Shown: in pieces, positions 105 to 56,575 of the stretch
How positions within the stretch are numbered: the first letter of the stretch is position 1
Layout: each line of letters opens with the position of its first letter
Assembly: GCA_021789495.1 (NCBI GenBank)
Contig: JAJYJM010000005.1
Location: forward strand, 11,876-75,875
Source: Nitrospirota bacterium
GTDB lineage: Bacteria; Nitrospirota; JACRHJ01
Length of the DNA stretch: 64,000 nucleotides
Direction of reading: 5' to 3'
Notes under the pieces: generated by a model
The model's input: the letters and a program-made list of their open reading frames with translations, nothing else
Databases searched by the model: none
Told to the model about the DNA's origin: nothing
Position numbers and translations under genes: made by a program

Positions 105-210
105 CATGCCACGCATTGTAGGGGCGCAATTCATTGCGTCCGGCATTCGTTCGTCATTCCCGAAGGTCTTAATCGGGAATCCAGGTTTTATATGCCGTTT
201 GAATTCTGTC
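105..210. repeat. Dispersed intergenic repeat (GTAGGGGCGCAATTCATTGCG + GTCATTCCCGAA...ATCGGGAATCCAGG modules)
   Basis: Both modules recur at 2670-2757, the first one inverted; the second module also resembles 2040-2140 and 50185-50235. Confidence 0.65.
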
Positions 211-265: not shown

Positions 266-1696
266 ATGCATACCAAGATCTGTTTCATCGAGGCGAAATC
301 GCCGGGGGCGCACGTCTTCTCGGCCTTTCCCATACCGCGCCTGGGCACAGTGTTGCTCGCCACCATCCTCAAGGGGCTGGGATACGACACCCGCGTGTTC
401 ATAGAGGACGTGGAGGCGCCGGACTGGAATGAGGTTGACTCCTGCCGGATAGTCGGCATTTCAACCATCACATCCACCGCCCCGCGCGCCTATAAAATCG
501 CCGACAGGCTCCGCGCAAGGGGCAAGACGGTGATAATGGGCGGCCCTCACGTCACGTTCCTGCCGGACGAGGCACTCAGGCATGCCGATTTCGTCGTTCG
601 CGGCGAGGGCGAACATACCGTTGTGGAACTGCTCAGCGCAATCGAGAATAAATCCTCTTTCGGAGATATAAAGGGCCTGTCGTGGAATTCCCAGGAAGGC
701 CCGGTGCATAACGAAGCGCGTGAGTTGATAGCGGACCTCGACCCGTACCCCGCGCCGGATTTCTCGCTCGTCCGGGGCTGGAGCCCGAAGGTCATTCTCC
801 CCATAGCCACGTCGCGCGGCTGTCCGTTCGATTGCAGCTTCTGCTCCGTAATCCACATGTTCGGCAGGAAATACAGGTTCAAAGGCATCGATAAGGTAAT
901 GGAGGAAATTCGTGCCGGGATAGAGGCAGGCAGGACTGCGGCGGGCAGATCCGGTTCGTTTGTGTTTTTCATAGACGACAATTTCACTGCTAACAAAAAG
1001 CGGACAAAGGAACTCCTGCGCAGGATCATAGACGAGGGCTGGTCTGCGGGCGGACTGAAGTTCAACTGGAGCGCCCAGGTGCGAAGCGACGCCGCGAGCG
1101 ACCCGGAGCTTCTGGACCTGATGAAGCGCTCCGGGTGCGAGAACGTGTTCATAGGCTTCGAGTCCGTCAATGAGAAGACGCTTCAGCTTTACAATAAAAA
1201 ACAAGGGGTTGAGGACATCGTTCGGGCGGTTCGGGCGTTCCATGCCAGGGGCATTCGCATACACGGCATGTTCGTCTTCGGCTCGGATACGGACGACGCC
1301 GAAACCATCAGGAATACACAGCTTTTCGCCCGGAAGATGGACATGGAGTCCGTGCAGTTCCTCGTCCTCACGCCGCTTCCCGGGACGCCGGTTTACAAGG
1401 AATTCGAGGCCCAGGGCAGGCTTCTGCACAAGGACTGGAGCAAGTACGACGCGCATTACGCCGTCTTCCGTCCCCTGCTTATGTCGCCCTCCGAGCTTCA
1501 ACGCGAGACTTTCAAGGCTATGGCAAAATTCTACTCCTGGAGCAAGATTTTCCGGCACGTCTCAAGGTTTAACTTCTACTGCGGGATGCTCGGCCTCTAC
1601 GGCAAGCAATCCGTAAAGAAGGCGCGCGTAAAAAGCGAGCAATATCTTAGAGATATGAAGGAGCTTGTGAACCTCCCGCCGTTAAAAAACCATTAA
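266..1696 (+). CDS. Radical SAM protein of the B12-binding type (B12-like N-domain + radical SAM)
   Basis: TSRGCPFDCSFC (CxxxCxxC), N-terminal Rossmann-like GISTITSTAPRAYKIADRLRARGKTVIMGGPH. Confidence 0.88.
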   Translation: MHTKICFIEAKSPGAHVFSAFPIPRLGTVLLATILKGLGYDTRVFIEDVEAPDWNEVDSCRIVGISTITSTAPRAYKIADRLRARGKTVIMGGPHVTFLPDEALRHADFVVRGEGEHTVVELLSAIENKSSFGDIKGLSWNSQEGPVHNEARELIADLDPYPAPDFSLVRGWSPKVILPIATSRGCPFDCSFCSVIHMFGRKYRFKGIDKVMEEIRAGIEAGRTAAGRSGSFVFFIDDNFTANKKRTKELLRRIIDEGWSAGGLKFNWSAQVRSDAASDPELLDLMKRSGCENVFIGFESVNEKTLQLYNKKQGVEDIVRAVRAFHARGIRIHGMFVFGSDTDDAETIRNTQLFARKMDMESVQFLVLTPLPGTPVYKEFEAQGRLLHKDWSKYDAHYAVFRPLLMSPSELQRETFKAMAKFYSWSKIFRHVSRFNFYCGMLGLYGKQSVKKARVKSEQYLRDMKELVNLPPLKNH

Positions 1697-2005
1697 ACCG
1701 CCCCGAATAAATAATCCCCCCAAAACGCACCTTCCCCGCGCCCTCTTTTTGCCCCGAAAATGCCCGAAAACGGCCCATTTCAGGCCCGCTTTCGATACCG
1801 GGGGAAATTCGTGATTTTTACACGTTTTTACTTTAACAATCAGCAGGTTCTGGAATCAATCCGGAATTGCTATCGACAATGAACTTCTCCGACCGATGAG
1901 ATTTACTATTGGCGCCCGGCTCGCGATTATCAGCAAATAGCATTGCAATTACCGAAACCTCTAAAGTCAACCGTGGATTCTTCGGCTGGGCCTCAGAATG
2001 ACAGG
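1697..2005 (-). repeat. ~300 bp repeat, copy 1 (inverted relative to 50295-50619)
   Basis: Reverse complement shares long blocks with 50295-50619: CCTGTCATTCTGAGGCCC, GAAGAATCCAC.GTTGACTTTA.AGGTTTCGG, CTCATCGGTCGGA.AAGTT, ATAGCAATTCC, AACCTGCTGATT, GGCCGTTTTCGGGC, GGGCGCGGGGA. Confidence 0.85.
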
Positions 2006-2039
2006 CAAGACAAACGAGGCGCCGGCACTCTTTAGTCAT

Positions 2040-2140
2040 TACCGAATGCCCGGATGAAGGGTAGGGGCCGACCCGCGTGCCGGCCTTGAATGAAATTCCT
2101 GGATTCCCGTTTTCGCGGGAATGACGGCGGGCAGGTCGGC
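2040..2140. repeat. Dispersed short repeat (CCTGGATTCCCGTTTTCGCGGGAATGACGG)
   Basis: Contains inverted repeat ATTCCCG..CGGGAAT, same family as the 105-210 and 2670-2757 modules. Confidence 0.55.
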
Positions 2141-41411: not shown

Positions 41412-43163
41412 TTATGCCTCGTCCTTGCCGCTGTCCTTTATACGCGCGCCGAGCGAGCTGTCGAACCTGTCCTGAGAGTTCCTGTAGCCATCCTGGTCGG
41501 ACTTCTCGCCCTCTTTTTTGAAAGCCTTTATGGACAGACCTATCTTGCGTTCGGCGGTATCGACCTTGATAATCTTGGCGGTTACCTCGTCATCGAGCTT
41601 CAGGAGGTCTTCCATCTTGGCATGCTGGTCCTTGTCTATCTCGGAGATGTGTATCAGGCCCTCGACGCCGCCTTCCAACTCTACAAAGACACCGAAATCG
41701 GTGATCTTTATGACCTTGCATGTAACGTTATCGCCGACCCTGTAGGAGCCTGGAATCTCGCGGTCCCAGGGATCGGAATCAAGCTGCTTGAGTCCAAGCG
41801 AGAGCCGCTCCTTTTCCTTGTCCACGGAAAGCACCACCGCCTCCACCTTCTGACCCTTTTTGAGGACCTCGGACGGGTGCTTAAGGTGTTTTGTCCAGGA
41901 TATGTCGGAGATATGGATAAGGCCGTCGATTCCCTCGTCCAGCCCGACGAATGCGCCGAAGTCCGTGAGGTTCCTGACCTTGCCCTCTATCTTCGAGCCG
42001 ACCGGATACTTCTCCGCTATGACATCCCAGGGGTTCGGTTCCACCTGTTTCATGCCGAGCGAAATGCGCTTATTGGCCTTGTCTATCGAAAGCACCACGG
42101 CGTCGATGATATCGCCCATGCCGACGACCTTGCTCGGATGGCGGACTTTCTGCGTCCAGGACATCTCGGAGACGTGGACGAGACCTTCTATGCCCTGCTC
42201 AAGCTCGACAAACGCGCCGTAGTCGGTAAGGCTCACCACCTTGCCGCGCACCCTCGCGCCCACGGGATATTTGCTGTCGGCAAGCGCCCAGGGGTCGTTG
42301 GAAAGCTGTTTCAAGCCCAAGGAGACCTTCTCGTTCTCCCGGTCGTATTTCAGCACCATGACCTTTATCCTGTCGCTGACGACGAACATCTCGGAGGGGT
42401 GGCTCACTCTTCCCCAGGACATGTCGGTTATGTGGAGCAGGCCGTCGATGCCGCCAAGGTCGATAAACGCGCCGTATTCCGTGATGTTCTTTACTATGCC
42501 GTCTATCACGACGCCTTCCTTGAGCGTCGAGAGCGTCTGAGTCTTCTTCTTGTCCCGGACTTCCTCAAGGAGCGCCCTCCTGGAGAGGACAATGTTGCCC
42601 CGGCGCTGGTTGACCTTGAGCACCTTGAGATCAAACGTCTGGCCAATCAGAGAATCGAGATTCCGAACGGGCCTTAAGTCTACCTGGGAGCCGGGCAGGA
42701 ATCCCTTAACTCCGTTTATGTCAACCGTCATACCGCCCTTTATGCGGGCGATGACCTTGCCGGTCACGGTCATGTCCTTGTTGCAGGCCTCTTCTATCTG
42801 CTCCCATATCTTTATCTTGTCGGCCTTCTCTTTCGAGAGGACGATATTGCCTTCGGAGTCCTCGCGCTCTTCGAGATATACCTCGATGTCGTCGCCGACC
42901 TTTATCCTCTTCAGTTCGTCGGCGTGTATCTCCTCGATGGGTATAATACCCTCCGATTTGTATCCCACATCGACCACAACTCCATCGGGCCTGACCTGTA
43001 TTACACGGCCCCTGACGACCGTTCCCTCCTCCACGCTCTTGAATGATTCGTCGTAGAGGCGGGACATTTCATCTTTATCCTGGCCTTCCGCCCCCACCTC
43101 CTCGAAGTCTTCCTCCTCTTCGGCGGAATAATCCATTGCCAGTTTCTTTTCCTCTTTTGCCAT
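41412..43163 (-). CDS. rpsA: 30S ribosomal protein S1
   Basis: Six S1 repeats (GAFVDLGG.DGLLHITDMSW type), 583 aa. Confidence 0.96.
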   Translation of the reverse strand: MAKEEKKLAMDYSAEEEEDFEEVGAEGQDKDEMSRLYDESFKSVEEGTVVRGRVIQVRPDGVVVDVGYKSEGIIPIEEIHADELKRIKVGDDIEVYLEEREDSEGNIVLSKEKADKIKIWEQIEEACNKDMTVTGKVIARIKGGMTVDINGVKGFLPGSQVDLRPVRNLDSLIGQTFDLKVLKVNQRRGNIVLSRRALLEEVRDKKKTQTLSTLKEGVVIDGIVKNITEYGAFIDLGGIDGLLHITDMSWGRVSHPSEMFVVSDRIKVMVLKYDRENEKVSLGLKQLSNDPWALADSKYPVGARVRGKVVSLTDYGAFVELEQGIEGLVHVSEMSWTQKVRHPSKVVGMGDIIDAVVLSIDKANKRISLGMKQVEPNPWDVIAEKYPVGSKIEGKVRNLTDFGAFVGLDEGIDGLIHISDISWTKHLKHPSEVLKKGQKVEAVVLSVDKEKERLSLGLKQLDSDPWDREIPGSYRVGDNVTCKVIKITDFGVFVELEGGVEGLIHISEIDKDQHAKMEDLLKLDDEVTAKIIKVDTAERKIGLSIKAFKKEGEKSDQDGYRNSQDRFDSSLGARIKDSGKDEA

Positions 43164-50184: not shown

Positions 50185-50235
50185 TTAAGGTCGTCATCCC
50201 CGAACGCCTTAATCGGGAACCCCGCGGCTTTGAAA
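50185..50235. repeat. GTCATCCCCGAACGCCTTAATCGGGAACCC dispersed repeat module
   Basis: Similar to 150-185 and 2713-2745. Confidence 0.55.
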
Positions 50236-50619: not shown

Positions 50620-51114
50620 TCAACTGGTTTGACCGCATTCGGCGTCGCTTCCGCGGATTTTCTCTATGGCGTGCGGTATCGCGGGCATAAGGACGGCGAG
50701 GTTCTCGACTGCCCCTTTCAGGCTCCCCGGCAGGTTGATTATCAGCGTCTTGCCGCGTATCCCGCAAGTTGCGCGGCTTATCATGGCGTGCGGTGTTTTC
50801 TTCAGCGATTCCATGCGCATAGCCTCGGCCATTCCCGGCAGCTCCCGGTCGATTACCGCTCTTGTGGCCTCAGGCGTCACGTCCCTTGGCGAGACTCCCG
50901 TGCCCCCCGTTGTAACAATCAAATCCGCCCCTGACCTGTCGGAAAGCGTTATCAGCCGGTCCATTATAATTTCCACCTCGTCCGGGATCATCTCGTAATT
51001 GATAATCTCCGCGCCGGTATTTTTAAGCATTTCCATAACCGCCGGGCCGGCAGTATCTTCCCGCTCGCCCCGCGAGCCCTTGTCGGATATGGTAAGGACG
51101 GCGGCTTTTATCAT
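50620..51114 (-). CDS. mog: Molybdenum cofactor biosynthesis protein MogA/MoaB
   Basis: AAVLTISDKGSRGEREDTAGPAV; LIVTTGGTGVSPRDVTPEAT. Confidence 0.93.
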   Translation of the reverse strand: MIKAAVLTISDKGSRGEREDTAGPAVMEMLKNTGAEIINYEMIPDEVEIIMDRLITLSDRSGADLIVTTGGTGVSPRDVTPEATRAVIDRELPGMAEAMRMESLKKTPHAMISRATCGIRGKTLIINLPGSLKGAVENLAVLMPAIPHAIEKIRGSDAECGQTS

Positions 51115-55780: not shown

Positions 55781-56575
55781 ATGAAAACACTTGCACTGTA
55801 TTTTTTATGCGTAACTTCTCTTATTTTTACAGCCTTTCCTGCGGCAGCTGACATGGTCGCGCAGAAAGGCGCTATGCCCGCGGCATGCGATATGAAGTCG
55901 CAGACCGGCGGATGCGCCTGCGGAAACTGCCGCAAGGCCGGTGCAGGCATGGGGCCGATGATGGGCGGCATGCGCGGGCGTATGGGAATGGACGGCATGG
56001 GCATGATGAAGTGCAGGATGTGCCATACGCAGGAGGGCTCCTATGGTATGGGCGGCATGATGGGGCGGCGCATGGGCATGATGGGGCGGCGCATGGGCCC
56101 CATGAGGATGATGGGCGGCATGATGGGCATGGGTCCAATGGGCATGATGGGATCTCCCATGATGAGGTCTTTGAAGACGCCCGATTATTACCTCGACCGC
56201 CGGGACACGCTGAACCTGACCGACGACCAGGTGGAGAAACTTGCGAAGCTCAAGGAGAATCTCAGAGAAGAAGTCATTATGAAAGGCGCAACGGTAATGG
56301 TCCTGGAGCTTCAGCTCTCGGACATTGTTTCCAATACCGGTTTCAAGCTCTCCGACGCGGAGGCCAAGCTGAAACAGATAGAAGCGGCACGGGTGAAGCT
56401 ACGCACGGTTGTCATAAAGGCGGCGGCGACGGCAAGAAACACGCTGACTAAAGACCAGCTTGAAAAACTGAAGAAAATTTCGTCGTCCGGTGAAAAATGC
56501 TGCGCGTCCTCCGGCAGTATGAAAAAAGACATGATGGAGAAGATGATGAGGGAAAAGATGGAGAAGATGAAATAG
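55781..56575 (+). CDS. Met/Gly/Cys-rich periplasmic protein (Spy/CpxP-like helical C-domain)
   Basis: Signal peptide; Met-rich GMMGRRMGMMGRRMGPMRMMGGMMGMGPMGMM; LTDDQVEKLAKLKENLREEVI LTxxQ-like motif. Confidence 0.75.
   Translation: MKTLALYFLCVTSLIFTAFPAAADMVAQKGAMPAACDMKSQTGGCACGNCRKAGAGMGPMMGGMRGRMGMDGMGMMKCRMCHTQEGSYGMGGMMGRRMGMMGRRMGPMRMMGGMMGMGPMGMMGSPMMRSLKTPDYYLDRRDTLNLTDDQVEKLAKLKENLREEVIMKGATVMVLELQLSDIVSNTGFKLSDAEAKLKQIEAARVKLRTVVIKAAATARNTLTKDQLEKLKKISSSGEKCCASSGSMKKDMMEKMMREKMEKMK

Follow-up and report, generated by a model that had tools for sequence, protein, structure and literature searches.

The stretch of a Nitrospirota genome analyzed here, 64,000 nucleotides long and referred to below as the window, carries closely similar noncoding sequences behind the stop codons of two genes, and the question is what kind of element this is and how it came to occupy the ends of genes. 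The initial annotation had described both copies as lying in the same orientation relative to the gene on their left, and this was confirmed by a repeat scan of the window (185 nt at 81% and 78 nt at 78%, complementary) and by a full pairwise alignment of the two stretches; in the DNA search, the second copy matched the first with an E value of 7.6e-61, far beyond chance. Copy 1 spans positions 1722 to 2006 on the plus strand (285 nt) and starts 25 nt past the stop codon (1696) of a co-oriented radical SAM/B12-binding gene (266 to 1696, plus strand). Copy 2 lies on the minus strand, from 50607 to 50294, and starts 12 nt past the stop (50620) of a co-oriented mog-like gene (50620 to 51114, minus strand; the name is that of the initial annotation). 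The ends of copy 1 are exact because a third copy, on contig C19 (C19:61446-61730), is 100% identical to precisely 1722 to 2006 and unrelated in sequence outside those limits. The element was rightly taken to be noncoding, with 2.3 to 3.1 stops per 200 nt in every frame versus 3.05 in shuffled sequence, and an origin from a protein-coding gene or small ORF was rejected, as stops occur in all six frames at about the shuffled rate. It is also distinct, as had been noted, from the short TCATTCCCG repeats.

Copy 1 opens with a module B of type B1 (1719 to 1822, plus strand, the first ~100 nt), C rich and G poor at its start, whose two ends are the arms of a decayed inverted repeat (TAAAAATCACnnnTTCCCCG / CGGGGGAAATTnGTGATTTTTA in the family form). 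Modules C1 and D follow at 1823 to 1936 (plus strand) and include the best conserved block, GAACTTnnCCgACCGATnAG. The copy closes with tail E1 (1937 to 2006, plus strand), which terminates in the REP-like palindrome GGATTCTTCGG..CTCAGAATGACAG and, in copy 2, contains an insert of ~26 nt. This palindrome is a separate short repeat that is also found solo and outside the genus; the REP-like sequence ending the E1 tail is GATTCTTCGCTTCGCTCAGAATGACAG, and the copy 1 tail TCAGAATGACAG is a separate REP-like repeat more widespread than the element. Downstream of copy 1, in the repeat-rich rest of the same intergenic region, sits ATTCCCGTTTTCGCGGGAAT (2103 to 2122, plus strand), a palindrome with the exact dRS3 pattern ATTCCC(N8)GGGAAT, for which 0.01 occurrences are expected by chance. 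Imperfect units related to it were seen at window positions 151 to 185, 2712 to 2746 and 50191 to 50225, and a dRS3-like repeat is present in a Nitrospirota bacterium.

A DNA search of the 2.08-Mb genome to which the window belongs retrieved 31 copies with E < 1e-11. With a sequence profile built from 51 copies and used on five congeneric genomes and the rest of the phylum set, all of them draft assemblies, about 36 matches were found in this genome (G000) and 19, 39, 28 and 32 in its congeners G001, G002, G003 and G004, respectively. The profile had no match in the one genome of another genus of the same family (G005) and nothing above chance in 112 other genomes of the phylum, where only two 17-bit matches appeared (E of about 0.006). 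An exact 20-base pattern searched among 85,462 named species genomes occurred in two congeners only, plus one match in a gammaproteobacterium that scores over just 29 nt (E = 4e-4) and was taken as chance. A phage or plasmid origin was rejected, with no match in the phage collection or the plasmid collection. The element is therefore one of a family of dispersed noncoding repeats of a single Nitrospirota genus, with ~20 to 40 members per genome. The null case formulated in the initial annotation, a single old duplication without function and with no further copies, has nothing in its favor beyond the two copies in the window, and the counts given above for this genome and for each congener refute it, so that it can practically be dismissed.

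When aligned, the copies are mosaics of about 200 to 285 bp in which the order of modules is fixed. Unit A (~130 bp) is found upstream in some copies only, and its ends are able to pair. Unit B (~100 bp) occurs in two internal forms (B1 and B2) and unit C in two forms (C1 and C2), followed by the conserved block D and then by one of several tails. All four combinations of B1 or B2 with C1 or C2 occur (the automatic C2 label of locus L005 is wrong, and it is C1 by reading), and the blocks CCTTCCCCGC, CGATACCG and GAACTTnnCC are conserved in all species groups. The two ends of unit B are decayed inverted copies of each other over 20 to 22 nt, with TA outermost, most clearly in L008, L010, L011, L017 and L074. 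Complementarity of the B ends over 84 C1-type copies averaged 13.9, compared with 9.8 ± 2.0 after shuffling, two control pairs scoring the same as, or close to, the shuffled value; C2 copies have mostly lost the inverted repeat.

This inverted repeat is the sole transposon-like feature that we found. The stretch from 1722 to 2006 as a whole has no terminal inverted repeat, its core holding imperfect inverted repeats only. Inverted repeats were also considered as boundaries of modules C-D and, in general, of A, but these did not exceed shuffles and were rejected, the arms of A being kept in few copies. No clear target-site duplication was seen, the one near-empty site (mog-pheA in G003) being too diverged to read a TA duplication, and no autonomous partner element was found. 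Some copies show irregularities upstream of the core: in several G002 copies (L075, L079, L080 and L097) the first ~35 nt of the element seem to be tandemly duplicated just 5' of the core, and elsewhere there is a near-perfect palindrome (GCGGAATAAGAGAAATTTCTCTTATTCCGC in L006, also in L008) ~40 nt upstream and within the right arm of module A, and a REP-like GATTCTTCGCTTCGCTCGGAATGACA lying in the loop of module A as though inserted (L018, L028 and L156).

The genes around the copies were called with a home-made codon-model gene finder. Over all copies the arrangement of left and right neighbors was ++ in 38, -- in 19, +- in 15 and -+ in 4, with nine copies without a called gene on one side; since orthologous copies are counted too, the numbers are not independent of one another. 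Orientation is biased about 2:1. The left gene was co-oriented in 58 of the 81 copies that have a called left gene, while in the other 23 the element begins close before the start of an opposed gene. In most copies the start of the element falls between 43 nt inside and about 160 nt beyond the left stop codon, and divergent promoter regions are largely avoided. The proposed location near gene ends thus holds, but the strict rule of a fixed orientation directly after a stop codon does not. Neighboring genes are unrelated housekeeping genes, for which reason a regulon of related genes was rejected, and no common target motif was seen at the insertion sites beyond A/T residues. One copy follows rnpB; the class A RNase P RNA (L002:985-1377) lies directly 5' of the C19 copy that is identical to copy 1 of the window.

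Most of these sites are shared within the genus. The flanks of most G000 copies match copy-bearing loci in G002 and G004 at 80 to 93% DNA identity, and the match runs up to and into the element with an identical junction. Among the copies of G001 and G003 examined, 20 of 22 have at least one flank and the orientation in common with a copy in G000, G002 or G004. Positions are conserved across the genus yet not immobile, as some gain and loss occurs. At the mog-pheA site, G003 has a short spacer and no copy, and G004 lacks the copy and has other genes between mog and pheA. At the site of copy 1, G002 has the element, G004 begins it before the contig ends, and G001 and G003 have other sequence.

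It is the sites that are inherited and not the sequence found at them, since orthologous copies are hardly more alike than permuted pairs and the best paralog is far closer. Core identity between orthologs was 0.648, 0.635, 0.601 and 0.613 (G002, G004, G001 and G003, respectively), versus 0.637, 0.622, 0.601 and 0.599 when the pairing was permuted, whereas the best paralog in the same genome averaged about 0.85. On the core tree, species labels change 15 times, compared with 38 after shuffling, and 25 of the 28 G002 copies form one species-only clade. Exact tracts of at least 50 nt are common to 73 within-species pairs, and their ends are often sharp inside the core: L012 and L014 share 204 nt from +116, L008 and L011 share 165 nt from the start, and L022 and L063 share 79 nt despite an overall likeness of 66%. 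Recombinant copies also occur, such as L029, which has its tail in common with its G004 ortholog L101 but not its unit C. Copy 1 of the window (L001) and the C19 copy (L002) are 100% identical, although both sites are occupied in G002 and G004; since the C19 copy and its G004 ortholog have similar tails, the C19 copy was, judging from these sequences, probably the source and the window copy the one overwritten. With paralogs closer to one another than orthologs are at common sites, and with exact tracts and recombinant copies, the family has the features of concerted (gene-converted) repeats.

We consider it probable that these are genus-specific modular intergenic repeats with a MITE-like start, inherited in place and kept alike by gene conversion. 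The family would have arisen, probably, as a small nonautonomous insertion, of which the first ~100 bp keep the decayed TA-flanked inverted repeat, a feature that suggests a MITE-like origin. The spread of copies would predate the divergence of the five sampled species, and thereafter the copies would mostly have been inherited in place at about 20 to 40 sites, with unchanged orientation, close to gene ends and clear of divergent promoters, while nonreciprocal homologous recombination (gene conversion) would overwrite all or part of a copy and leave its position unchanged. We infer gene conversion as the process, as well as the MITE-like origin, from direct observations, namely, the copy number, the restriction to the genus, the common sites and orientation, the species-wise clustering, the exact tracts and the reassortment of modules. 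The tracts, the reassortment and the identical copies point to gene conversion, which explains them without moving copies. Against it, the mean identity between paralogs of one genome is only 65 to 74%, low for efficient RecA-type conversion, so that conversion presumably acts mainly within subfamilies, whose members alone are close enough. Parallel reinsertion at preferred sites could mimic part of the pattern, and collapse of repeats in draft assemblies could produce false identity, for instance between L001 and L002. That the copies persist at fixed sites hints at a benefit to the host but does not prove one.

One competing reading is an active nonautonomous element with a strong preference for gene ends that lands anew at these sites in every species, in which case shared sites would reflect parallel insertion. 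The clustering of copies by species, the TA-flanked inverted repeat on module B, the near-clean empty site at mog-pheA in G003 and the avoidance of divergent promoter regions all agree with such activity, but for dozens of sites to agree in orientation and junction, specificity would have to be near absolute, and no motif common to them was seen beyond A/T residues. G002 and G004 have no Y1 transposase, a clear target duplication is not seen, and internal recombinants such as L029/L101 (common tail, different module C) fit conversion better than insertion of whole elements, so we regard ongoing transposition as improbable. The initial annotation had suggested a nonautonomous mobile element that targets gene ends; a mobile origin is plausible in view of the decayed TA inverted repeat, but active targeting is unsupported because the positions are common to the genus. 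A different possibility, one we hold only tentatively, is that the copies are DNA sites for one trans-acting protein (gyrase or a nucleoid protein, for instance, both of which have been suggested for BIMEs) and are kept alike by selection together with conversion. Sites and orientation fixed across the genus, the three blocks conserved in all species groups and the diverse housekeeping neighbors, which argue against a regulon, would suit it; however, the conserved blocks are scattered through the element without forming a single motif, and concerted evolution can maintain likeness within a genome without function. It is rather unlikely, if conceivable, that the copies are coevolving functional sites pinned genus-wide in position and orientation, at which a single trans-acting factor might bind or set transcription boundaries, with conversion spreading new versions so that site and factor change together in each species.

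Action on transcription has been considered in two forms. As a transcription-boundary element, the repeat might end the transcript of the left gene, its C-rich, G-poor start serving for Rho loading or a hairpin plus T-run near +95 serving as an intrinsic terminator, a reading that is possible but doubtful. The plus strand begins with 49% C and 14% G and then becomes T rich, and the left gene is mostly co-oriented. Of 84 copies, 24 carried a terminator-like signature on the plus strand, versus 3.4 in shuffled sequences (12 carried one on the minus strand); the shuffling is a lenient control that destroys T-runs and so overstates the excess. Conversely, 60 of the 84 copies have no plus-strand signature, the C2 subfamily is without T-runs, and in the 19 copies in the -- context the plus strand ends nothing obvious. 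A stem-loop followed by a T-run is thus not found in most copies, and the scanner detected none in copy 1 and, around copy 2, no more than chance would give; the terminator cassette suggested initially may apply, weakly, but is not supported as a trait of the family. That the element is transcribed into a structured noncoding or 3'-UTR RNA is very improbable. The consensus fold of the minus strand lies somewhat below column shuffles (z of -2.3 to -3.6), with two 6-bp helices more than 80% paired on that strand only, but single-copy folds average z-scores of just -0.4 to -1.1, RNAalifold yields 10 pairs at -1.6 kcal/mol, pair changes in the best minus-strand helices are not above those of shuffled columns (115 to 297 of 500 shuffles reach the observed value), and the C2 subfamily has not retained these helices. 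Rfam had no match to the element, either in the window at the gathering threshold or in six loci at E <= 0.5, and the earlier idea of a 3'-UTR RNA with conserved structure is not supported by these results.

The family has counterparts among the repeats of other bacteria. In the neisserial intergenic mosaic elements (NIMEs), RS repeats are bounded by dRS3, with the pattern ATTCCC(N8)GGGAAT (PMC3898611). Our family resembles them as an intergenic mosaic of different repeat units, and the intergenic region of copy 1 has the exact dRS3-pattern palindrome; however, flanking by dRS3 is not the rule (the pattern occurs at 26 of 187 loci and mostly flanks just one side), the element core is unrelated in sequence, the neighbors are not surface antigen genes, and the sites are fixed genus-wide. 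Like BOX of Streptococcus pneumoniae (boxA-boxB-boxC), it is modular, intergenic, noncoding and variable in length. BOX, RUP and SPRITE are overrepresented between convergent genes, and pneumococcal RUP, SPRITE and IS elements are rare between divergent genes relative to convergent sites (PMC3049150); our element, too, is rare between divergent genes. It is set apart from BOX by architecture, its modules being alternatives in a fixed order (B1/B2, C1/C2 and several tails) rather than a varying number of tandem boxes, and pneumococcal repeats, in contrast, vary in presence among strains.

REPs and REPINs have been described as a vertically persisting sequence population (PMC8049555), and with these and BIMEs the family has in common extragenic mosaics near gene ends that persist vertically. 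Its core, however, is not a 20-to-40-nt palindrome, the copies are few and 215 to 285 nt long, and REP-like palindromes are confined to the tails. RAYT genes (Y1, PF01797) are absent from G002 and G004, so REP mobilization by RAYT was rejected; G000 has one 143-aa single-domain match (C13:35798-36160, L138), probably an IS200-like transposase, and G001 has one as well. The MITEs ERIC, RUP and Correia, for which the terminal inverted repeats and TA termini have been tabulated (PMC2229807), are similar as small nonautonomous repeats with TA at the ends (here of module B) and an inverted repeat, here decayed and of 20 to 22 nt; they differ in that the inverted repeat of our family is limited to the first ~100 bp, many copies having lost it, with no demonstrable target duplication and no autonomous partner found.

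The repeats constitute a new intergenic mosaic family that works like BIME, BOX or NIME but lacks those defining features of each that were tested; what sets it apart is that site and orientation are conserved while the content is replaced in concert. Descriptions of dispersed bacterial repeats usually present them as mobile and as varying in position, whereas here the positions are largely kept and the sequence is the species' own version. If this is true in finished genomes, the family would lend itself naturally to testing how bacterial noncoding DNA evolves in concert, and also whether such repeats are kept for action at gene ends. Comparisons of orthologous sites, or covariance models of such repeats, call for caution, as they mix the history of the site with that of the copy.

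Two other internally repetitive regions were noticed in the window. The ORF at 55853 to 56575 contains many ATGGGC-type repeats (internal repeats D2 and D4) and likely encodes a Met/Gly-rich low-complexity protein. On the minus strand, a 583-aa ORF (41412 to 43163) has four repeats spaced ~260 nt apart (D1), a pattern that would be expected of a putative multi-S1-domain protein.
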